From assembly GCA_031315915.1 (NCBI GenBank), contig JALDRK010000006.1:1-64000 (forward strand): DNA of 64,000 nucleotides, written 5' to 3'. The notes beneath the pieces are model-generated. The model did not search any database. It worked only from the letters and a program-made list of their open reading frames with translations, and had not been told where the DNA came from. Origin of the DNA: Nitrospirales bacterium (GTDB lineage: Bacteria > Nitrospirota > Nitrospiria > Nitrospirales > UBA8639). The translations under genes and the position numbers were made by a program. The stretch's first letter is position 1; every line of letters begins with the position of its first letter. Below, in pieces: positions 11,423 to 63,338 of this stretch.

Positions 11423-14388
11423 GATACGAACGAGGGCTCGTGCGGTTGATATGCTCGGCAGGCAACAAATTGCCGGCATTCAAAATGCCGTTAGCGAGTT
11501 GTATAAAAATGCACATGATGCCTATGCGACCCTTGCCAGGGTTGATTATTTCGAGGATCAAAAGACTCTTAGTTATACGTGACAATGGCGTTGGAATGAC
11601 TCGGAAGACTTTGAAGACAAATGGCTTGTGCTAGGTACGGGACAGGGTAAGTTTGGAAATGTGGCAGGAAAAAGCAGTATAGGCCGGAAGGGATGGAACG
11701 CCGACCAATTACCGGCGAAAAAGGAATTGGTAGACTCGCGATCGCCTTGTTGGGAAGTATTGTCCTAGTCCTATCTCGTGCGCGTCGTGAAGATGGGATG
11801 CAGGATTTGGTAATGGGTTTATGTTCACTGGGGCGTATTTGAATTTCCAGGGCTGAATCTTGATGAAATTGAAATTCCTGTGAAAACTGTCCTGGGCGGT
11901 AATCTGCCTTCAGAAGACGACTGTGCGGCTTTAGCAAATGACTTCCTCAATAGTGTCTCACGCCTTGGAGATAAGTTACCCAGATCTCGATTTTTTCAGA
12001 TATTAGAAGGGATGTTTCAGCATTTCGCCCAGATGCAACGGATCTTGCTGGTGCTTGATCCACATGACGATGGAAGCTTTCTTTGGTTGGTGGAAGGAAC
12101 ACATTTCATCATTGCTCCGGCAGCATCGATATTGAGTTTGGAGATTGCCACCGAGGACCGATTGCGACTATAGCTTCCCGAAAATCTCTTCTCCGTTTTT
12201 ATAACCAAGTATTTCCGCAAAGCCTCCGGCGACGATCACTACATCTTTAGAGTCTGGAAGCCCGGGCGATTAGGTGAAGAATATCTTGATCCAGAGCTTT
12301 TTTTTACTTCGATGAGGTCAGAAAAGTTGACCATTACTTCTCAGGAAATGTAGATGAGTTTGGCCAGTTCTCTGGAACCTTGCGGGTGGTATGGAGAAGA
12401 CATATGACGACTTAAATATTGCCTGGAGAGAAAGTCTGGGGCGCCAGACGGAATGTGGCCCATTTCAGATTGAATTTGGCTATCTTATGGGAACTAAGAG
12501 TGAATCCATCGTAATTCGAAGAATTTGATCTGATCAGCCCAAGATTCAAAAAACTTGGCGGCATGTATATCTATCGTGATGGAGTACGTGTTCCAGCCTA
12601 TGGTGACCATTCTTTTGATTGGCTTGAAGTCGAAAAACGCCGCAATCTTGGAGCAGGCTACTATTTTTTCTCATTCAGACGGATGTTTGGGGCAGTAATT
12701 CTCAATCGGAATAAAAATGGAAGGCTTGTTGAGAAAGCAGGACGAGAGGGATGGCAGCAGAACAACGCATACCGTCAATTGCGGGAGATAGTGATAAATC
12801 TTCTGACCCAGTTAGCGGCGGAGTTTTTTCGCAAGGGTGGTACACATACAGAACTATTTGAGGAACACAAGTCTGAACTAAAACGCAAGGCTGTTCTACT
12901 TGAGAAGCGAGAAAAGCAGGTCGCTAGAAAAAAAAGGAATTTCTCAGAATCGCTAGACAAATTTTTTAAATTAGTCAATGAGGAATTTTTCGAGCAGGAG
13001 CTTACAAAATTGCGGCAAGATACTAATGCGGCCATGCAGGGGGCAGCGAAAATTAAAGATCAGGATCAGGCTGCAGCAGCATTGATTCAAGCTGAAAAAT
13101 TTGCGCTAGAGCGTGTCCGAAAGCTTCGTGATGATTTTGGATGTAGGCGGCCTGCCGGTGTGGGGTTCTCGAAAAGTTTGCATGAACGATGGGAGGCCTA
13201 TCAATTCGAAAGAAAGCGTCTTGAGCAGGACCTCTTTTCCCCATTTGAGCAAGAAATAGCAGAAACATTGGGAAAAGTTGCGAAACAAGCAAGAATTTAT
13301 GTAAATCAGCGTCGTCGGCTAGAAGAGAGACTAAGAAGTATACAGGAAGAACGACAACAAATGCTGAAAGAAACCGTAAAACTCACCAGGGCAACTGCTG
13401 ATGATACTAGAGATGCGGTTTTCGATGTCACCCAACGTGCTGTACAAGACTTTGACAGCACCTATCGCCGGATTGAAACGGACTTAAATAGGCTCAATCT
13501 GGATTTGCTGGATGAGGCGGCTATTGAGAGGCAACGTCAGCAATGGGAAGAACAGTTACTCGAAATAGAGCAGCGGCATCGCGGTTCGCTCGAAGCCGCA
13601 CGAGATATGCTTTCTATGTTAGCTGAAAATTTGAAGGCTTCGGGTGAAGCTGAAACTGCCGAAACTATGGCGGCTATGGACGAAAGAATGATGGCGCTTG
13701 AGGAGCAGGCAGATGAAGATTTTGAGATGGTACAGCTAGGTTTGGCCGTGGCGATTATCAATCATGAATTTGGCGCAGCGATCCGAAATGTCAGGAAAAA
13801 CATTCAAGAACTTGGATTTTTATCTCGTGGGAGTAAATCAATTCGCCCATTGTACGATTCAATCCGTTCGAATTTTGAGCACCTTGATGGGCATTTGGGT
13901 CTATTTACGCCGCTCCAACGTCGCTTGCACAGAAGGACTGTGGGAATTTCCGGCAAGGCAATATACAACTACGTGCATGATCTCTTTTCTAATCGCCTAG
14001 AGCGGCACGCCGTATCAGTTGAGCGCACCGAATCTTTTATGGCTGCCATAGTGGAGTGTTATCCTTCTACTATCTATCCAGTTTTTATTAATATGGTTGA
14101 CAATGCAATTTATTGGCTCAAGACGATTTCCGCCCCAAGAAAAATATCTTCGAGGCGGAGGAAGGGGCTTTCATAGTGGCTAATAATGGGCCGCGGATTC
14201 CCGATCGGGATGCTGGCGGTCTTTTTGAGAGAGGATTCACTCGCAAGCCCAGTGGAAGAGGGCTAGGTCTGTTCATTGCCAAAAAAGCACTCAAAAAAGA
14301 AGAAATGGACATTATGCTTGATACTCCTCCTCCTGGATTTAATGTAGCTTTTAGGATCACTTCTCCAACCATTAAGTTGATACCATGA
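11415..14388 (+). pseudogene. MORC/HSP90-like GHKL ATPase with coiled coil and C-terminal histidine-kinase-like module, frameshifted
   Basis: Read across frames this encodes about 990 residues. The N-terminal GHKL module has ELYKNAHDA (N box), VIRDNGVGM (G1) and TGEKGIGRLA (G2). A later segment, KLGGMYIYRDGVRVPAYGD (about 12550-12610), is typical of MORC-like ATPases. A coiled coil spans about 12780-13720. The C-terminus has AIINHEFGAAIRN (H-box-like, His codon at 13763), FINMVDNAIYW about 110 residues later (N box), VANNGP (G1-like) and LFERGFTRKPSGRGLGLFIAK (F and G2 boxes). This is the geometry of a histidine kinase. At least eight frame changes fall between 11560 and 12560 and one near 14150 (one A short); the 12563-14176 stretch is uninterrupted. 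It overlaps dcm by 8 bp and the receiver gene by ATGA. It may be a decayed gene or an intact one with sequencing errors. Confidence 0.8.
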
Positions 14389-16055
14389 CTTTCCAATCGA
14401 TCTCTGATTTTTCTTTGTTAGCTACGAAACAATACCTCCAGAGTGCGGTGTTCATAGATGATGAAATCTATAATGAAAACCCAACGACCCCTGATTCTGA
14501 GGAAATTGTGGTTCGCCGCCCTAAAGTGGTTATGCAAATTGCTGGTGGCTCCGCCGATCTCCTATCGGAGAGGAAAACCAAAGAAGAGCCAACCCCAGTG
14601 GCTGACGACATGCCAAAACAGAATTTTAGGAAAAAGGATTTAGTTGGTAGTTTTGCCGAGCATGGAATTGTATGTGCATTGTATGAGCCAGAGGAAAACT
14701 TTGAAACTGGGGAAGATTCGACAGTATTCAAGCTTTGTCAGACAGCTGACCTGGTAATTCTTGACTGGGACTTTCATGAAGATGGTGTTAAAGGTGAAAA
14801 ACCGAAGGCCTTGATTGAAAACCTTATTAAAAACGGCAATAGCGTAGCTCCGTATCACGTCCGATTAATAGCTATTTACACTAATACTCCAAGCCTCCAA
14901 TCAATAGCTAACTCACTTTTTCAACACTTAAATAAAGCCCAATTAGAACCTGAGCCGATTGAATGTCAATTTCGGCTCCAGGCAGGGTCTTCCAGAGTTA
15001 TAATTTTGGGGAAAACTGGAGGAGTCCCACGAAGGGACGAGGAGGAGTCTTTCACAATTTCGGAGAAAGAATTGGCAGACAGACTGTTGTCTGAGTTCTC
15101 CTATATGAATTTTGGAATTTTGCCATCGTGTGCGCTTCTCGGAATGGCCACAGTTCGACATAACTCCGCCAGAATACTTGATAAATTTCGAGCCAACCTT
15201 GATGGGCAATTTCTGCTTCACCGTGCGTTAATTCGTGGGAGCGAAGAGGCCTTCGATCAATTGCCTGAATTGCTAGGAGATGAGTTTAGAGCGGTAATCG
15301 AAGATTCTTATTATTCCCCGGAAGACGTGACGAAGTTTGTAGCGGATACGAGTGCAGTTATTGAAGTTAGTCCTCCTTCTCCTCCTTGGAAGATAAAAGG
15401 CCGTTCTTGCGATGTTGTTTTAAAGGAGTTCTGGGTTAAGGATAATGATCTTCTTAAGCCACTAATGAAGAGAGAAAAGGCGGATCCTGACGATGGTGAT
15501 CAACCAAAAAATCCTATTGAAAAAATAGCTGTCATGTGTTCAGTAAATGATGGAGACGCACATTCCAGATTCGCCGCCCTTTTAACTATCAGAACCCAAT
15601 ATAAAACTAAATACCGGAATCTGGGGTTTGGCACTATTTTATTAGATCGCTCGAATGGGAAATACAGTGTTTGTATCGTTCCTCCTTGCGACTCTCTCCG
15701 CCTCAATTGCGAAACGAATTTTCCATTCTGGTATTTGACGCAATCGAAGAGCGGACATCCAATTATTTTCCAGTGTCCTGATGGAAAATGGCGTAATCTT
15801 ACCTTTAAAGTTGGAAAGCCGTCTCAATATATGTGGTTTGGTAAATTTCTTCCAGATGCCGAGAAGAAAATTGTACGTGTAACAAAAGATGATGACGAAA
15901 AGTACATATTTAAATCAGGGGTTAAAGAGTTTGAGTGGGTAGCTCAATTGAAGCCAAGTCATGCGCAACGGATCGCTAATACTATTGGTCAACAACTTTC
16001 TCGTGTTGGTCTTGCCGAGGCTGAGTGGGCGAGAATGGCTTTTTCGAAAGATTAA
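14385..16055 (+). CDS. Receiver-domain protein of the island, C-terminal function unknown
   Basis: The first roughly 215 residues have a divergent response-regulator receiver pattern. AVFIDDEI gives the acidic pair D25/D26, DLVILDWDFHEDG the phospho-acceptor D127, IAIYTNT the conserved T166 and VIILGK the conserved K210. An insert of about 60 residues, rich in charged residues and Pro, sits after strand 1. The remaining 340 residues match no family I know and show no HTH, GGDEF or ATPase motif. The gene is intact and overlaps the upstream double-GHKL gene (ATGA), so the two are likely translated together and the receiver is the natural phosphorylation target of the histidine-kinase-like module. 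That link is inference. A role as effector or switch of the restriction system is plausible but unproven. Confidence 0.7.
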   Translation: MTFQSISDFSLLATKQYLQSAVFIDDEIYNENPTTPDSEEIVVRRPKVVMQIAGGSADLLSERKTKEEPTPVADDMPKQNFRKKDLVGSFAEHGIVCALYEPEENFETGEDSTVFKLCQTADLVILDWDFHEDGVKGEKPKALIENLIKNGNSVAPYHVRLIAIYTNTPSLQSIANSLFQHLNKAQLEPEPIECQFRLQAGSSRVIILGKTGGVPRRDEEESFTISEKELADRLLSEFSYMNFGILPSCALLGMATVRHNSARILDKFRANLDGQFLLHRALIRGSEEAFDQLPELLGDEFRAVIEDSYYSPEDVTKFVADTSAVIEVSPPSPPWKIKGRSCDVVLKEFWVKDNDLLKPLMKREKADPDDGDQPKNPIEKIAVMCSVNDGDAHSRFAALLTIRTQYKTKYRNLGFGTILLDRSNGKYSVCIVPPCDSLRLNCETNFPFWYLTQSKSGHPIIFQCPDGKWRNLTFKVGKPSQYMWFGKFLPDAEKKIVRVTKDDDEKYIFKSGVKEFEWVAQLKPSHAQRIANTIGQQLSRVGLAEAEWARMAFSKD

Positions 16056-16168
16056 TTGAATGAATGATAAATACTTTAGAAAAATGCCGCACAAACATCT
16101 TGAAAATTTTCAGACGGTTTTTCTGCTCTAATTTGTCCTTGTATTTCTAGGATTTAAAACCTCGGAAA

Positions 16169-16597
16169 ATGGCTGACATATATTCCAAGGTAAAGCGTTC
16201 ACAAATAATGTCCGGCATCCGAGGGAGGGGAAACCTCAATACTGAATTAAAACTTGCGAAGTTGCTCAGAAAAAATCGCATCATCGGTTGGCGACGTCAT
16301 CTCAAGATATTCGGCAATCCAGACTTTGTCTTTCGAGAGCATCGTCTTGCAATATTTGTGGATGGATGTTTTTGGCATGGTTGTCTGAAGCACGCCTCAC
16401 AACCTGTAACGAATTCTATTTTTTGGAAAGAAAAACTGGTTCGAAATAAACAACGTGATCGATTGGTGACCCGGACTTTAAAAGCACGTGGATGGCAAGT
16501 TCTCAGGATATGGCAGCACGAACTACTTCGGAAAAATGAATCTCGATGTGTATCGAGAATTAGGCGTGTACTGAATCGGATCTCGAATGAAATCTAA
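16169..16597 (+). CDS. vsr: Very-short-patch (Vsr) type DNA mismatch endonuclease
   Basis: The 142-residue length and motifs fit Vsr. MSGIRGRGN lies near the N-terminus, GNPDFVF carries the catalytic Asp, AIFVDGCFWHGC followed by KHA gives zinc and active-site residues, and GWQVLRIWQHEL is near the C-terminus. Vsr nicks 5' of the T in T:G mismatches that arise when 5-methylcytosine deaminates, so it normally accompanies a Dcm-type methyltransferase, as here. Vsr-like nucleases are also used as the cutting subunit of some restriction systems. The gene is intact, although its dcm partner is frameshifted. A 113-bp gap separates it from the receiver gene. Confidence 0.92.
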   Translation: MADIYSKVKRSQIMSGIRGRGNLNTELKLAKLLRKNRIIGWRRHLKIFGNPDFVFREHRLAIFVDGCFWHGCLKHASQPVTNSIFWKEKLVRNKQRDRLVTRTLKARGWQVLRIWQHELLRKNESRCVSRIRRVLNRISNEI

Positions 16598-18472: not shown

Positions 18473-19673
18473 ATGCTTGAAGAGTTTATTTATAACTTCA
18501 CCCATAACCTGTTTAAACCCTTATTACTTTTTTTCTATCTGGGATTCTTGGTCCCCATACTCAAAGTCCCGTTTGAATTTCCGTATGTCCTCTATAAAGG
18601 GTTAACGATTTATCTCCTCATCGCCATTGGTTGGCACGGCGGTGAAGAGCTGGCTTCGCTCTCAATGGCGGAATTCGAACATGCCCTTGGGTTCATGGTG
18701 ATTGGCTTTCTCACCAATTTAGCCATCGGCATTATGGCCTATTTCATGCTCCGACGAACTAATTTGCGAAAGATTGATGCGGCGACGGTTGCCGGATACT
18801 ATGGCTCCGATTCGGCTGGAACTTTTGTCACCTGTCTTGGGGTGCTTGCTGCAGCCAATATCGCTTTTGCAGCCTATATGCCTGTACTGTTGGCCGTGAT
18901 GGAAATCCCTGGATGCTTGGTTGCCCTTTATATCGTCTCGCGCCTCCGTGCTTCCCGTCAGATGGACGCCCTCGGAAATATGCCGGGAGAACCGGTACGA
19001 TCCTTATGCCCGCAAATCCAAGGAATTCACCGTTCAGGACGAAGATAGTCATAGCCACGACGAACAGCCAATCCCGGTTTCCATGCCGGCCCAGTCGCTA
19101 GGTGCCGCGGCGGCGGCGGACTATCAGCAATCCCAGAGTATCTTCAGCAAAAAGATTCTTCACGAGATTTTCCTCAATCCGGGGCTCTATTTGCTTTTCG
19201 GAGGCATTTTGATTGGATTTATCGGTCGGCTGCAAGGGGTAAAAGTCACAGAGGTCGACGACCGATTTTTCGTCGCCTTGTTTCACGGTATTTTATCCCT
19301 CTTTCTGTTGGAAATGGGCATGACGGCCAGTCGCCGACTAAAAGACCTGAAACACGCAGGTCCATCCTTTATTCTGTTCGGTTTGATCGCGCCAAACATC
19401 TTTGCCACAATTGGGATCGTAGTGGCCCATGGTTATAGCGTGCTCCTCGGTGTGCCATTCGAGTTGGGCACTTATGCGCTCTTTGCGGTGCTGTGTGGGG
19501 CGGCCTCATACATTGCCGTGCCGGCGGTTCAACGCCTGGCCATTCCGGAAGCCAGTCCGACTCTGCCGTTGGCAGCCTCATTAGGTTTGACCTTTACTTA
19601 TAACGTGACTATCGGTATCCCCGTGTATATTATGATTGCCACGGCACTGACCAGAGCGATACCGGTCGGATAG
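18473..19673 (+). CDS. sbtA: Sodium-dependent bicarbonate transporter SbtA, with one frameshift
   Basis: SbtA is an inner-membrane Na+/HCO3- symporter used in carbon concentration. The first part (18473-18991) has hydrophobic helices and the motif YYGSDSAGTFVTC. The second part (18993-19673) has IFLNPGLYLLFGGILIGFI, HGILSLFLLEMGMTASRRL and FTYNVTIGIPVYI, all typical of SbtA. The frames join at GGA GAA CCGG TAC (18992-18995), where one extra base (or two missing) breaks the frame inside the hydrophilic central loop. Corrected length is about 400 residues, compared with about 370 in the family. AAGGAG precedes the ATG. Downstream, a second frame (19651-19806) reads 50 codons with an acidic end (SPELISLADDKLSDGDDL), possibly an altered tail. 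sbtB follows. The shift lies in a loop and may be a sequencing error. Confidence 0.82.
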
Positions 19674-19814
19674 CCACGGGGGCGCTCAAAGTATCTGTGA
19701 AGATATCACCACGTTCATTCATGGCACCTGGTCGCCTGAATTGATATCGTTGGCTGACGATAAGCTGAGCGACGGTGATGACCTAACCGAATACAAGAAA
19801 TTTTGAGGTGTATA

Positions 19815-20123
19815 ATGCCGATAGAAAAGGCCATTCTGGTGAGTATTATTACCGAAAGTGGTTTGATCCCAATCATTCAAGATCTCCTGAAACGGGCGGG
19901 AGCAACAGGATACACCATCGAACCAGTCGTTTCGGGGTTCGGTACACATGGATGCCGGGATGGACAGTTTGAAGGTGACCAAACCAGTAAAATAATCTCC
20001 TTGGTTTCTCAGACTACGGCTGATAAGATCTTTGAGGAGATCGAAGAGACTTTAGAGCCCCATTATGCCCTCACCGCATTCCGTCACCAAGTTGAAGCCC
20101 TCATGCCCATCGTGACTTCTTAA
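19815..20123 (+). CDS. sbtB: PII-like regulator of SbtA (SbtB)
   Basis: This 103-residue protein with a ferredoxin-like PII fold has GYTIEPVVSGFGTHG in the T-loop region and TADKIFEEIEETLEPHYALTAF in the C-terminal half. It directly follows sbtA, as in cyanobacteria. There SbtB binds cAMP, AMP or ATP and closes SbtA when carbon is abundant. The protein ends soon after the core fold and lacks the CGPxGC redox loop of cyanobacterial SbtB, so nucleotide hydrolysis under redox control is unlikely here. The ATG at 19815 has GAGGTG 6 nt upstream; an in-frame TTG at 19803 is less likely. Confidence 0.85.
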   Translation: MPIEKAILVSIITESGLIPIIQDLLKRAGATGYTIEPVVSGFGTHGCRDGQFEGDQTSKIISLVSQTTADKIFEEIEETLEPHYALTAFRHQVEALMPIVTS

Positions 20124-20293: not shown

Positions 20294-21045
20294 ATGAAGG
20301 TCTATCCGCGAAGGTTTTTGACCGGCACCATTTTCATCTTCTTACTCTCATCGGCTCCGATTGCAGGCATGACTGTAACGGCCTATCAGGCGGAAGAAGC
20401 GGCTAGGCTCATCGCCGCACTGTTGATCTCAGGTCGTGTGGTTGTTGATCAGAGTCAATCTCTCATCAATAGCCCTGATCAAGGCGATAAAGGGTTCACC
20501 CGGAGGTGTTTTGAACGACAGGTTATTGATGAATTTCGATCCGCACAGGAGTGGATCTGACGAAACCGTCCTTGATCCATCTCCCTGGGAATGTGACGGA
20601 ACTTTTGAGCATGCTCTTGCAAGCCAGCAGCGATGTCGTCGAGGAGGCTCAGCCGGTCATCAACCAGGCGGGAGTCGGATACAAGAATTTTATTCCCGCG
20701 ACTTTCGGCAGTCGTGTCTCCGAACGGTTCTCGGCCAAGACAGGCGTTGGACTCAAACAAACGACGCTACAACCGCGTAATCCGAAGAATGCCCCTGACC
20801 CCTATGAAGCCGCTGTTCTGCGACGGTTGTTGACCCAACCAAGCCAATCTGTGACGATCAGTGAAATGCCGAAAGGGGATAACACCCTCCGGCTCCTTAT
20901 TCCAATTTACTACGAGACTGAATGTCTGCAGTGTCATGGCCAACCGGCAGGCCAAATAGACATTTCTGGCTACTCAAAAGAAGGAGCGCAGGAAGGTGAT
21001 TTAGCAGGCGCAATTAGTGTGTCCATGCCACTTGAACATCCTTAG
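20294..21045 (+). pseudogene. DUF3365 (Tll0287-like) periplasmic c-type haem protein, frameshifted
   Basis: A signal peptide (FLTGTIFIFLLSSAPIAG) is followed by a DUF3365/Tll0287-like sensor fold. EEAARLIAALLISGRVVVDQ, AGVGYKNFIPATFGSRV and a single haem motif CLQCH (about 20932) are visible, then LAGAISVSMP. The ATG at 20294 has AAAGGAG 7 nt upstream. The frame moves back by one near 20542 (FRS to TGVDLTKPS). A compensating pair of one-base changes near 20498-20513 would restore GFTPEVFERQV. Without correction translation ends at 20560. Such domains sense redox state or small ligands through haem. It follows sbtAB on the same strand but with a 170-bp gap. Confidence 0.75.
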
Positions 21046-21186: not shown

Positions 21187-22200
21187 ATGAACCTGTATGT
21201 CGGACATCATTGCATGTTGCTTTTTGCTCTCCTGGGGGTTCTTGGCCTTGGGACCGCTGCCAGAGCTGGTGATACTTACACAATCCGGGACATCGGGACG
21301 ATTGTGACGGGGGGCACGGTTGAAGACTTGTCCAATGATGGACAGATCGTTGGAACGGCACCGATCAGTTTGACGAGAAGCCATGCCTGGTGGTTTGACG
21401 GGACGAGGCACGTCGATCTTGGTGCGTGTGGCGGAGTTGGATGCCGGGTCATGGGTATCAATTCAAGGTCTCAATTCGTCGGAAACATCGGACGCGATGC
21501 TTTTATTTACAGCGATGGAAAATTTTTCGATATTGGAATCTTTGCCAAGCCTCCTGGAATGGCACTGGCTGTCAATGATTCAGCATGTCTTGTGGGGTGG
21601 TATACACTCATTCCTCATCTCGAGGGCAATTCGACTGCTCCATCTGAACGGCACGCTTTTCTCTATCGTGGACGGAAATTAACGGATTTGGGCACTCTCG
21701 GTGGAAAAGAAAGCGTGGCGACTGATATTAACAATCATGAACACGTGGTAGGTTATTCGAGCACATACCGGGACGAAACCCATGCCTTCTTGTATATACA
21801 AGATCGGATGTTGGATTTGGGAACTCTTGGCGGAACGGAAAGCAGAGCCAATGGTATCAATGATCGGGGACAGGTGGTCGGCAGATCCGGCGTGGCCGGC
21901 TCCAACCGGCAACATGCGTTTCTTTACGTGGATGGAAACATGACTGACCTGGGATCTCTCGACGGTCAAGAAAGCACAGCATTAGATATCAATCAAGCCG
22001 GATACATCGTGGGGATGAGCGGTTCCCGAGGCTTTCTCTATAAGGACGGAACCATGTTCGATTTGAATTTGTTGCATTCTCAAAGATCGGCCTGGAAGTC
22101 GATTCGCCCCTGTTGCATCAATGACAGCAATCAGATTGCCGGCGTTGGAATTTCTCAGGACAATAAGTCCCATATCGTTCTTCTGACTCCCATTCAATAG
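21187..22200 (+). CDS. HAF-repeat secreted protein
   Basis: An N-terminal signal peptide (cleavage near ARAG-DT) leads into a chain of HAF repeats of about 40 residues. Each has HAFLY, a short turn, DLGTLGG, then IN..G.VVG (clearest at residues about 158-300). The repeats form beta-propeller-like structures in secreted or surface proteins whose function is not known. AAGGAAAG lies before the ATG at 21187. It is a complete 337-residue gene with no obvious operon partner. Confidence 0.88.
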   Translation: MNLYVGHHCMLLFALLGVLGLGTAARAGDTYTIRDIGTIVTGGTVEDLSNDGQIVGTAPISLTRSHAWWFDGTRHVDLGACGGVGCRVMGINSRSQFVGNIGRDAFIYSDGKFFDIGIFAKPPGMALAVNDSACLVGWYTLIPHLEGNSTAPSERHAFLYRGRKLTDLGTLGGKESVATDINNHEHVVGYSSTYRDETHAFLYIQDRMLDLGTLGGTESRANGINDRGQVVGRSGVAGSNRQHAFLYVDGNMTDLGSLDGQESTALDINQAGYIVGMSGSRGFLYKDGTMFDLNLLHSQRSAWKSIRPCCINDSNQIAGVGISQDNKSHIVLLTPIQ

Positions 22201-52981: not shown

Positions 52982-53275
52982 GTGTTTGGAACGTTCGGTT
53001 GGATGGAGTTATTGCTCATCCTCATTATTGTGCTCATTATTTTTGGGGCAGGAAAAATTCCCCAATTGGGAGAGGGACTAGGGAAAGCGATTAAGGGTTT
53101 TAAAAAGTCCGTGGCGGAAGCGGATGCGTACGATGTCACGCCCGAGGAACAGGCGGAATCCGAACCGCCTCCCAATCCAGGGCAAATTCCGAATCAATCG
53201 CAAATGGCGCAGGAACCGCCAACTCAACCAGCTGAGCCGCAGCCTGCCGAAACGACACAATCCAAACAAGGGTAG
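52982..53275 (+). CDS. tatA: Twin-arginine translocation protein TatA/E, copy 1
   Basis: TatA forms the pore of the twin-arginine export system for folded proteins. The 97-residue protein has one N-terminal helix (LLLILIIVLIIFGAGKIPQLGEG), the FGxxKxPxxG hinge, an amphipathic helix (LGKAIKGFKKSV) and a Pro/Gln-rich tail. The start is a GTG at 52982 with GAGG upstream. A second tatA follows 127 bp downstream; tatC is not in the window. Confidence 0.92.
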   Translation: MFGTFGWMELLLILIIVLIIFGAGKIPQLGEGLGKAIKGFKKSVAEADAYDVTPEEQAESEPPPNPGQIPNQSQMAQEPPTQPAEPQPAETTQSKQG

Positions 53276-53402
53276 ACTTGTGGTGAGGTTGCCACGGTGA
53301 CGATTGCAAAACCCTGGTATGATCGATACCCGAAGTCATTTGTTCAAGGCACATATCACGCCTCTCATGCCGACCACCCCATTCAACTAAGGATAAACGG
53401 CG

Positions 53403-53690
53403 ATGTTTGGACTTGGGGCAATGGAAGTCTTGGTCATCCTGGTCATAGCTTTTCTGCTGTTTGGCCCAAAAGAATTACCGGAAATTGGAAAACAGGTCGG
53501 GAAAGCCGTCAAAGGGTTTAAGGACACCACGGAAGATCTTCGTCAGTCGGTGGAACCGGAGATCAATATGATTACCCAGGAGTTCAAATCCGTGGAGCAG
53601 GACTTAGAGACCTCTATGAAGGAGGCCGAAGAGCAGATCAAGGGAGCCACAGAGCAAGCCACCGATTCCGGTGGATCCAAGGCTGTATGA
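53403..53690 (+). CDS. tatA: Twin-arginine translocation protein TatA/E, copy 2
   Basis: The 95-residue paralogue of the upstream TatA has helix MEVLVILVIAFLLFGPKELP and an amphipathic segment (GKQVGKAVKGFKDTTEDL). A longer acidic helical tail with EAEEQIKGATEQA makes it slightly TatB-like. AAGGA lies upstream of the ATG. Two different TatA proteins side by side may serve different substrates or stand in for a TatA/TatB pair. Confidence 0.9.
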   Translation: MFGLGAMEVLVILVIAFLLFGPKELPEIGKQVGKAVKGFKDTTEDLRQSVEPEINMITQEFKSVEQDLETSMKEAEEQIKGATEQATDSGGSKAV

Positions 53691-60864: not shown

Positions 60865-62814
60865 TTAGCAGCAGGGGCCGGCCGGTAGGTTGATGCCTTC
60901 GCCCTCGAAAACCTCTGTGCTGTTTAACGGGTGTTTTTGCACGAGATATCCATACCATTTGCGGGCGCTATCGGCAAGGACAACCAGGGCCAGGCAGGCC
61001 ACCATGCCTACCAAGCCTGCGTTGAGGCCCATGGTCACGGCCTGCGCTCCTTCGCCTGAGGAAGCCCGTTGAAAAAATATGATGAATAGTTCATAGCAAC
61101 CCGCCAGAGTGATGATTCCCACAAAGACCATGGGGAAAACAGTGACCCAAAGGTAGCGGGCTTTTCCCATTTTGATGAGGACCGTCGTGGCGATGCACAG
61201 AGCCAGCATGCCCAAGAGTTGATTCGCGGCGCCGAACATCGGCCAGATGGTTGAAATCGTGCCTGTGCCGATCAGATATCCCCATGCTCCTACGACCAAA
61301 AAGCTGCTGCCTAGAACGCCCGGCCACCAATTGATTTGCTTGAGTGGAGCAAAAGCCCGTCCGCCTAATTCCTGCACCAGGTAGCGGGCCACCCGTGTTC
61401 CGGCATCGATGGTGGTGAGGATGAAGAGAGCTTCAAATAACAAGGCGAACTGATACCAATAGGCCATGAGCCCGCTCATGCCCGGAAGGCCTGAAAAGAT
61501 GGAGGCCATGCCTACGGCAAGAGATACGGCCCCGCCTGGCCGTCCCGAGACGTCCACCTCCACCATGCCGGAGAGTTCGGTGATATGCGCGGTGGGGAAC
61601 CCCAGGGCTTTCAGGTCTTCCGCGGGGAGGCGGGTATTGATGGCCAGATAATCTCCCGGAACCAGGAGGCAGGCGGCAATGAGAGCAATGACACCGACGA
61701 AACTTTCCAGCAACATAGCCCCGTAGCCCACGATGGCCTGAGATTCCTGACCGATCAGTTTGGGAGTGGTCCCCGATGATACCAGAGAATGAAAACCCGA
61801 GATGGCTCCGCAGGCAATGGTAATAAACAAAAATGGAAAGAGCGTGCCGGGGATGATGGGACCATTGCCGGCGGTAAACATGGTGGTGCGGGGCATTTCA
61901 ATGGTGGGCGCTAAGAGGATCACGCCGATTCCCAGAAGTGCGATCACGCCCAGTTTCATGAAGGTGGAAAGATAATCGCGGGGGACGAGGAGAATCCACA
62001 CCGGCAATACGGAAGCCAGGAAGCCGTAGGCCGCGAGGCACCAGGTCAGAGTGGTGCGATCCCAAGTAAACCATTCGGCCCATTCAGACTGCGCGACGAC
62101 CCGTCCAACCATAATGGCTACAATCAGGAGGAAGAGGCCGATGAGCGTCATTTCTCCAACCCGGCCCGGCCGGAATTTTTGCAAATAGAGGCCCATCACG
62201 AAAGCGATGGGGATGGTCATGGCGATGGTAAATGTGCCCCAGGCATTATTGAACAAGGCGTTCACCACAGCTAATCCCAAACCTGCCAGAGCAACGACCA
62301 CAATAAACAGAACCGCAATAGCTGTGGCGAGTCCGGTGATGGGACCCAATTCGGCATGAGCGATTTCCGGCAAGGATTTTCCGTTGCGCCGCATGGAGGC
62401 CACGAGAATGACAAAATCCTGAACCGCTCCGGCCAGCACAGCTCCGATCACGATCCACAAAAATCCGGGTAAATATCCAAACTGAGCGGCCAAGACGGGT
62501 CCCAGCAATGGACCGGCACCGGCGATAGCAGCGAAATGATGACCGAATAGAATGTATTTGTTGGCGGGATAAAAGTTGGTGCCGTCCTGAAGTCGATGGG
62601 CGGGAGTGCGGCGTTGGTCATCAAGATTCATGACCGACTTGGACAGCCAGCGGCCATAAAATCGATAGGCCAGGACGTAAAAACAGGCTGAGGCCACTAC
62701 CAGCCACAATCCATTCACTTTTTCTTCGGGATTGACCAGTCCCGCCACATGAGCGAAGGCCCATGCGCAGATGACCGCAAGACCCATCCACCCGGTTTTA
62801 TGTGCCAGTGACAT
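60865..62814 (-). CDS. cstA: Carbon starvation protein CstA (peptide/pyruvate transporter)
   Basis: CstA is a many-helix inner-membrane transporter, shown in E. coli to import pyruvate or peptides on carbon starvation. About 16 hydrophobic helices are visible. Signature stretches are PANKYILFGHHFAAIAGAGP, GAVLAGAVQDFVILVASMRR, and ALFILTTIDAGTRVARYLVQ. The 649-residue length from the ATG at 62814 fits. The frame is open 33 codons further up, but that extension reads non-membrane sequence and AGGA lies before 62814. The gene is on the minus strand between yajQ and a PGPGW protein. Confidence 0.95.
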   Translation of the reverse strand: MSLAHKTGWMGLAVICAWAFAHVAGLVNPEEKVNGLWLVVASACFYVLAYRFYGRWLSKSVMNLDDQRRTPAHRLQDGTNFYPANKYILFGHHFAAIAGAGPLLGPVLAAQFGYLPGFLWIVIGAVLAGAVQDFVILVASMRRNGKSLPEIAHAELGPITGLATAIAVLFIVVVALAGLGLAVVNALFNNAWGTFTIAMTIPIAFVMGLYLQKFRPGRVGEMTLIGLFLLIVAIMVGRVVAQSEWAEWFTWDRTTLTWCLAAYGFLASVLPVWILLVPRDYLSTFMKLGVIALLGIGVILLAPTIEMPRTTMFTAGNGPIIPGTLFPFLFITIACGAISGFHSLVSSGTTPKLIGQESQAIVGYGAMLLESFVGVIALIAACLLVPGDYLAINTRLPAEDLKALGFPTAHITELSGMVEVDVSGRPGGAVSLAVGMASIFSGLPGMSGLMAYWYQFALLFEALFILTTIDAGTRVARYLVQELGGRAFAPLKQINWWPGVLGSSFLVVGAWGYLIGTGTISTIWPMFGAANQLLGMLALCIATTVLIKMGKARYLWVTVFPMVFVGIITLAGCYELFIIFFQRASSGEGAQAVTMGLNAGLVGMVACLALVVLADSARKWYGYLVQKHPLNSTEVFEGEGINLPAGPCC

Positions 62815-62909
62815 GGGGAGGGATCCTAGCAATCGTTCTGTGTGGAGTAAACCGTTTAACTGTTGTCTATCGGATATGGTGACGAGGTCAAAGACGTGAG
62901 CTGCACACG

Positions 62910-63338
62910 TCACGAAGCAAAGGTAAAGGGTGGTTTGTCGGCTTTCTTCCGTAAGGCATTGATGGCTTTTAAAATTTGAGGATGCCGGATAAGTTTGTGT
63001 TCAAGGGCATGTTTGCCGGGAAAGTCGATGAACACGATTCCCAGCAACATGGTCAGGAGTCCTTGACCCGGCAACACCAGCATGGCGATGCCGGCAATAA
63101 GGAAGATTACTCCGATGACATTTTTGACGAGGAGCCCCACACTGCGGATGATCGGATGATGATCGGCAAACCAGGGTTTGTGATGGTGATTTTGAAAGTA
63201 GTCTGCAGGCAGTCGGATGAGAATAGCCGGGATCGCGATCAACGTGCCGATAAATGCCACGAAGGAAAATCCGATCAGCCCGATCCACACATCTCTGGGG
63301 ACCCAGGTCTCAAGAAATTGAATGAAAGAGTCAATCAT
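62910..63338 (-). CDS. PGPGW-type small membrane protein
   Basis: This 142-residue membrane protein has three hydrophobic helices. IAMLVLPGQGLLTMLLGIVF resembles the PGPGW-motif transmembrane family (here PGQG), and an N-terminal helix DVWIGLIGFSFVAFIG and a His-rich cytoplasmic or periplasmic loop (NHHHKPWFADHHP) are present. Function unknown. It lies upstream of cstA in the same direction with a 95-bp gap. Confidence 0.8.
   Translation of the reverse strand: MIDSFIQFLETWVPRDVWIGLIGFSFVAFIGTLIAIPAILIRLPADYFQNHHHKPWFADHHPIIRSVGLLVKNVIGVIFLIAGIAMLVLPGQGLLTMLLGIVFIDFPGKHALEHKLIRHPQILKAINALRKKADKPPFTFAS

Follow-up and report, generated by a model that had tools for sequence, protein, structure and literature searches.

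A four-gene Nitrospirales cassette around a non-canonical Sbt_1 transporter and an SbtB-like PII protein: probable transporter exchange and two frame breaks in the deposited sequence

The sbt locus of a Nitrospirales genome is interpreted here, with moderate confidence, as an inorganic-carbon-uptake cassette of this order in which the transporter has been exchanged. It lies in a stretch of 64,000 nucleotides (the window; G000:C56:1-64000) of assembly G000 (3.83 Mb, 62 contigs, 91.6% complete), whose genus had no second genome among the 40 examined. A conserved gene order, sbtA - sbtB - Tll0287-like - DUF3466-like, was recognised by combining Pfam matches, the open reading frame listing and comparison with Nitrospirales relatives. 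As deposited, the window's sbtA cannot be translated in one piece. An initial annotation had reported an SbtA-SbtB pair, and this pair is indeed present, with PF05982 (Sbt_1) matched in two frames and PF00543 downstream; neither the four-gene set nor a second break, in the heme-protein gene, had been recorded in it.

All features of the cassette are on the forward strand. The sbtA ATG at 18473 is preceded by AAAGGAG and opens the N-terminal half of the gene (18473-18994; the TM1-5 repeat by homology), with 91% identity to residues 1-174 of the orthologue in genome G016, the open frame continuing through an out-of-register tail to a TAG at 19046-19048. The C-terminal half (18987-19673; the TM6-10 repeat by homology) lies in another frame and is 87% identical to G016 residues 173-400. 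Both halves scored over the cut-off, the frame 18473-18991 matching PF05982 profile positions 1-148 (136.5 bits) and the frame 18993-19670 positions 143-307 (186.9 bits), while a single frame covers positions 1-307 in G016. After a spacer of 141 nt (19674-19814) follows the sbtB-like, PII-like gene (19815-20123), which is intact, 63% and 65% identical to its G016 and G480 counterparts and matched by PF00543 (P-II) over 19815-20120 with 51.3 bits. An orphan open frame (19657-19806) that runs through the spacer is placed outside the system and was rejected as a gene, having no relative in 40 genomes and a best match outside itself at E 0.118. The Tll0287-like (DUF3365, sCache_heme) c-heme protein is encoded at 20294-21045, and the set ends with an intact DUF3466-like repeat protein (21187-22200; PF11949, E 7.7e-9), found in the same place in six other cassette genomes. 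Promoter and terminator scans returned background level only, and the window had no match in Rfam or tRNA searches. Elsewhere in the window, a row at 12563-16597 encoding a HEF_HK histidine kinase, a Response_reg_2 protein and a Vsr endonuclease resembles a conflict or defence island, and a CstA carbon-starvation protein is encoded at 60865-62913.

The sbtA break (18987-18997) falls ahead of the cytoplasmic central loop and was located by alignment, codon usage and tblastn overlap. Compared with the intact 400-aa G016 orthologue, the window gene is 2 nt short at about 18996, the alignment being otherwise gap-free over 1201 aligned positions (79.4% identity); a codon-usage parse, blind to homology, placed a frame shift at 18991, and the two halves overlap at 18987-18994 in tblastn. 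Orthologues are read in one frame in six Nitrospirales genomes (G016, G480, G014, G018, G021 and G338), and the frameshift which the initial annotation had placed at 18990-18997 is thus confirmed. Programmed frameshifting was set aside since these six orthologues read through, the site itself being inspected by reading alone. Neither half contains a further stop, and constraint on both is strong, with omega values of 0.036 and 0.068 (N and C halves) against G016 and of 0.030 and 0.069 against G480, dS exceeding 1; such low values suggest that selection on the frame was strong up to the very recent past, unless the living organism still has it intact. A distant homologue from Mycobacterium talmoniae (L052:5992-7196) is also found in two frames.

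The second break, in the Tll0287-like gene, lies between about 20500 and 20542, upstream of the CLQCH motif, and splits the gene relative to all six cassette homologues. Alignment gave a net deficit of 1 nt at about 20539, overlapping frames at 20500-20539 in tblastn agree with it, and two compensating one-base differences in C and T runs were read by eye at about 20500-20515. To gauge the frequency of such splits, 244 kb of G000 were compared with a control set of 518 proteins encoded at relatives' loci, at an identity of at least 45%. Because this control covered 18,132 window bases and just 894 bases elsewhere, it is valid for the window alone, where sbtA and the heme gene were the only split genes. 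The same two splits came out when open-ended frames were used and the identity filter was dropped (65 queries, 35 of them matching, 18,367 window bases). A third split gene, cstA, had been suggested by an 819-aa frame in G014, but G016 has eight stops in the stretch matching its first 145 residues, and cstA accordingly gives no evidence of a break; apparent splits at 52982-53681 proved to be tandem paralogues. The Tll0287 break escaped the codon-usage parse, whose one further site in the window was 13810, in the histidine kinase; the ATPase-like end of this kinase was seen by eye in another frame (14113-14388). By the same parse, 13 shifts were predicted in 244 kb of G000, 3 in 138 kb of G016, 2 in 40 kb of G014 and 1 in 20 kb each of G338 and G018.

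The initial annotation had left three options for sbtA, namely that it is inactive, expressed as two parts or mis-sequenced, and all three are supported as alternatives, though not equally. That both breaks are consensus errors of the assembly, the living organism having an intact operon, is given very nearly an even chance. The heme gene carries three one-base differences within about 42 bases, with conserved coding between them and two of them certainly in C and T runs; this close spacing, partly in runs, favours error, as do the low omega of sbtA, the halves free of further stops and the six unbroken cassettes in other genomes. Against error stand the otherwise clean window, in which only these two genes are split across the covered bases, the 2-nt size of the sbtA deficit and the net heme-gene deficit, which may or may not lie in a run; the 13 predicted shifts in G000 versus 3 in G016 were also entered on this side. 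Real and recent breaks, by which the operon would just have been inactivated and its loss tolerated as two DabA systems can supply inorganic carbon, are rated slightly below even. Real loss is favoured by the clustering of the homology-detected breaks in a single operon, of which they affect two genes, and both DabA genes are intact in G000. Sbt_1 moreover has a scattered distribution in the phylum, occurring in 17 of the 395 Nitrospirota genomes sampled (G000 included), and short internal sbtA pieces in other Nitrospirales (loci L007 and L020; 39 profile positions in G025 and 58 in G214) point to repeated loss. Real loss is opposed by the unrelaxed constraint on both sbtA halves, by the intact sbtB and repeat-protein genes, and by the kinase at 12563-14388, which may be broken too, so that breaks may extend beyond the operon. 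The choice between error and real loss is therefore near even.

Expression of sbtA as two five-helix halves that assemble is considered very improbable. The break does fall between the two inverted repeats, at residue 174 and just before a loop predicted to be disordered (residues 185-227 of the L022 model have pLDDT below 50), and the C frame offers an ATG at 19083; yet no ribosome-binding site is seen by eye before this ATG, the N half ends out of register, residue 174 lies within an unbroken frame in all six Nitrospirales orthologues, and the M. talmoniae gene is split elsewhere, near residue 42. The pair cannot by itself imply active bicarbonate uptake, as the initial annotation had proposed, while the transporter frame is broken.

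The transporter is an Sbt_1 elevator-type protein of a divergent, non-canonical branch of about 400 aa, as judged from profile, phylogeny and residue comparisons. Its membership of the Sbt_1 superfamily is clear, the PF05982 profile being spanned by the two halves; among solved chains, SbtA was the sole match of the intact G016 orthologue (E 2.9e-23), and all five PDB matches at E <= 0.001 of the predicted model of the intact relative L022, of moderate quality (pLDDT 69.5), were SbtA. At least 572 relatives were confirmed among 84,980 species genomes, and Nitrospirota, Planctomycetota, Actinomycetota and Pseudomonadota are all represented in the 80 that were retained; the occurrence of the pair outside cyanobacteria is accordingly upheld, although not as something unusual. 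In a quick tree of 48 of the 96 aligned rows, the window's branch (clade 1) comprised 24 rows with an SH-aLRT of 100 and a stem of 3.82, uniting Nitrospirales, Nitrosomonas marina, Planctomycetes, mycobacteria and one Obscuribacter, while two Nitrospirota rows of canonical type (L017 and L021) lay far from it on very long stems; several long branches elsewhere in this tree leave the deeper order unsure. Two mycobacterial loci, L044 and L095, carry two tandem clade-1 sbtA genes.

In Synechocystis SbtA, residues S114, Y140, S324 and S327 have been proposed to bind HCO3- on the basis of docking and mutation tests (PMC8352866). At these positions the window protein has S, L, S and A and so departs from canonical cyanobacterial SbtA. 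The two changes are general: in the 96-row alignment, in which a few genomes are present twice, Y140 is replaced in 94 of 94 non-canonical rows (by L in 89) and S327 likewise in all 94 (by A in 93), whereas S114 is kept in 93 and S324 in 94. With two of the four residues changed, bicarbonate is a likely substrate of the window's transporter, short of proven. Mycobacteria are mostly heterotrophs, and the substrate or role may differ in a branch so common among them. The reading that the transporter moves something other than bicarbonate, or that SbtB lies next to it and does not act on it, is rather unlikely. It draws on the two altered residues, on the frequency of the branch in mycobacteria and Planctomycetes, where SbtB does not lie beside it, and on the large sbtA-sbtB spacer; however, 13 cyanobacterial non-canonical rows carry the same L and A changes, the available text of a review describes bicarbonate uptake for the SbtA2 family, which has its own SbtB2 (PMC13249358), and the set is conserved at low omega in three genomes of two genera. 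SulP transporters near clade-1 sbtA genes (6 of 40 rows, corresponding to 5 of 38 distinct loci) also speak against it and are a mild hint of carbon context. In G246, a beta-carbonic-anhydrase-like gene was seen by eye just upstream of a partial sbtA (ORF of 161 aa) on the same strand (L019:767-2659).

The regulator belongs with SbtB/CPII-like proteins, having a PII-like fold and lying beside an Sbt transporter. By sequence it is nearest to TTHA0516 (E 3.7e-10), then to CPII (1.3e-6) and to Cyanobium SbtB (0.014), and its structural model (pLDDT 84.7) matched TTHA0516, CPII and SbtB folds in that same order, the matches including CPII in complex with ADP and bicarbonate and SbtB in complex with AMP, ATP or cAMP. 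The protein has 102 aa and ends in HQVEALMPIVTS, with no C-terminal cysteine pair, as the initial annotation had seen in noting the missing CGPxGC loop; the contrast it drew with cyanobacteria does not hold, since the R-loop is found in only about half of 460 cyanobacterial SbtBs according to the accessible part of PMC10991534. The missing R-loop is ordinary here too, a pattern search for CGPxGC in the last 25 residues giving 0 of 47 SbtB-like rows, while three (L091, L092 and L101) have CxxxxC further in, as CLVTDC or CLISDC. Residues R43 and R46 of Synechocystis SbtB are described as needed for apyrase activity in the text available for PMC10117731. The column of R43 holds H in all eight cassette rows (seven genomes, G346 twice) and that of R46 holds R in all eight, whereas R occurs at R43 in 22 and at R46 in 19 of the 39 other SbtB rows; the window protein therefore has HxxR in place of RxxR and lacks both features of a redox-regulated apyrase SbtB (CGPxGC and R43xxR46). 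For cyanobacterial SbtBs lacking the R-loop, reading of the adenylate charge without redox control has been proposed (PMC10991534, accessible part), and with neither R-loop nor R43 the window SbtB is expected, by analogy, to sense adenylate charge in the same redox-independent manner.

The window SbtB was searched against 235 Nitrospirales genomes, 154 of which had some match at E <= 0.001. Close matches were confined to seven (G000, G480, G016, G116, G466, G346 and G181), the next best having E 8.3e-8, and in the six besides G000 the four-gene order is complete with each gene in one open frame. The transporter is of the 400-aa type in G016 and G480, and of a 340-aa branch in G116, G466, G346 and G181. 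The phylogeny that the initial annotation had called for gave incongruent trees. The SbtB proteins of the seven cassettes form a single clade (100/99) against 28 other rows, in a tree of 35 of the 47 rows from which 12 near-duplicates were left out; their Tll0287 proteins likewise form one clade (100/98.7) against 18 paralogues (25 rows, loci L128-L130 being left out). The transporters do not: forcing the seven into one clade cost 133 log-likelihood units in a quick tree of 43 rows and was rejected (p-AU 2.1e-8). With SbtB and Tll0287 in single clades and the transporters apart, the simplest account on these trees is that the window's family kept its sbtB-heme-repeat module and probably had the transporter ahead of it replaced.

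The neighbourhoods of other transporters are consistent with replacement. No SbtB-like frame (>= 70 aa, E <= 1) was found beside any of 45 other clade-1 loci, some of them only 4-5 kb long or ending near sbtA; these rows include two pairs from the same contig and leave out the partial loci L051 and L064. This absence makes the pairing of SbtB with a clade-1 transporter look derived. Outside the cassette set, the 39 SbtB rows without exception accompany transporters from outside clade 1. Three transporter rows outside clade 1 (L080, L097 and L100) likewise lacked an SbtB hit, which counts against this reading. The sbtA-sbtB spacing fits a replacement, being 32 nt in the two cassettes with 340-aa transporters that were measured (G116 and G466) and wider in those with the 400-aa type (G000, 141 nt; G016, 535 nt; G480, 548 nt), where co-transcription is putative. 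A remnant of the old transporter in these spacers was sought and rejected, the best match reaching only E 0.38, and the window spacer shares no similarity beyond 10-nt words with the 535- and 548-nt spacers of G016 and G480. Four residues set the three cassette 400-aa transporters apart from 45 others, 179 and 218 in or near the central loop and 295 and 299 at the TM7-TM8 junction, which is cytoplasmic by homology; with only three close sequences, co-adaptation to SbtB is only a lead. The SbtBs nearest the cassette clade are those of Thiobacillus and Thiocapsa kin, with a support of only 83/69, and because their transporters group apart from the 340-aa cassette ones, the older history would be less simple; the two arrangements may also have been assembled independently. 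Among the cassettes with 340-aa transporters, that of G116 is followed by a Proton_antipo_M protein and HyfC/HyfE-like frames seen by eye (L174:10897-14592), indicating a membrane-bound complex, and that of G466 is preceded by a carbonic-anhydrase-like gene (L173:2419-3024; PF00484, E 7.2e-5, below the curated cut-off). A literature search on SbtA/SbtB in Nitrospira, for which subscription papers and preprints were mostly beyond reach, yielded no account of this cassette.

The third gene encodes a protein assigned to sCache_heme by its profile match and CxxCH motif, its frame being broken upstream of the motif; PF11845 was the only Pfam match of its C part at E <= 0.001 (E 8.7e-26), and the motif is CLQCH in the window and G016 and CLTCH in G116. 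The accessible portion of PMC12889525 describes Tll0287-like proteins as c-heme Cache domains with Nitrospirota among the enriched phyla, reports redox-protein behaviour for a stand-alone member and NO-sensor properties for a HAMP-linked one, and proposes redox roles for stand-alone ones; SbtA is unmentioned in that portion. The mere presence of the family was rejected as evidence of linkage, as it occurs in 53 of 59 genomes, including G000, with up to 12 copies each, and only its fixed place and single clade beside sbtB are informative. It is conceivable, and in our estimation quite unlikely, that sbtB was re-targeted by the replacement of the transporter gene while the redox input of the R-loop now comes from the co-travelling periplasmic c-heme Cache protein; such a candidate periplasmic input would require a membrane relay.

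Under the preferred reading, the exchanged-transporter cassette, the Sbt_1 protein would act as an elevator-type, Na+-coupled anion symporter, most likely for bicarbonate, importing inorganic carbon, and a trimeric, adenylate-sensing PII-like plug of the SbtB/CPII type would close it via its T-loop, the secreted c-heme Cache protein and the repeat protein completing the cassette. In the window's family, the 340-aa transporter found with this SbtB type elsewhere would have given way to a 400-aa one whose branch otherwise has no SbtB beside it. The bicarbonate substrate, the SbtB trimer with its plug action on the new transporter and the adenylate signal are what we infer here, and the direction of the exchange and any role of the heme protein are offered in the same conditional sense. 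The autotrophy suspected in the initial annotation finds support in a PF16114 match in G000, the citrate-binding domain of ATP-citrate lyase; on gene content, G000 is likely an autotroph using the rTCA cycle and having other means of carbon uptake. For Nitrospira marina, BicA-like SulP transporters have been reported, according to the available text of PMC8115632.

If the exchange is true, the locus amounts to a natural experiment: one SbtB type stands behind two transporter branches that long stems separate, and their comparison could show which transporter features a PII-like plug requires. In these relatives of nitrite oxidisers, the c-heme Cache protein is a testable candidate for feeding a redox or NO signal into bicarbonate uptake. 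The broken frames also advise caution, as an annotated sbtAB pair is not necessarily a working uptake system.

For autotrophs, SbtA families are already on record (PMC10880623), as are SbtA-like proteins for heterotrophs (PMC10117731), as far as the accessible parts of these papers extend. With SbtA-SbtB of Synechocystis PCC 6803 (7CYE, 7CYF, 7EGK) the window system shares the Sbt_1 5+5 fold, the downstream PII-like gene and the retained S114 and S324, the identity between SbtA and L022 being 20-22% in the fold alignment; it differs in the changes of Y140 to L and S327 to A and in an SbtB lacking the R-loop and R43. The closest solved relatives of the window SbtB, in sequence and fold, are CPII of Thiomonas intermedia K12 (5D4L-5D4P), whose entry titles name structures with ADP, AMP and bicarbonate, and TTHA0516 (2CZ4), both with 25-35% identity. 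By description only, the pair can be likened to SbtA2-SbtB2 of marine Synechococcus, in which a non-canonical SbtA has its own PII-like partner and inorganic carbon uptake is reported (PMC13249358, available text). The heme protein shares PF11845 and CxxCH with stand-alone sCache_heme/Tll0287 (DUF3365) proteins, from which the window cassette differs by the linkage to sbt genes. The system itself is of a known type; its arrangement is new.
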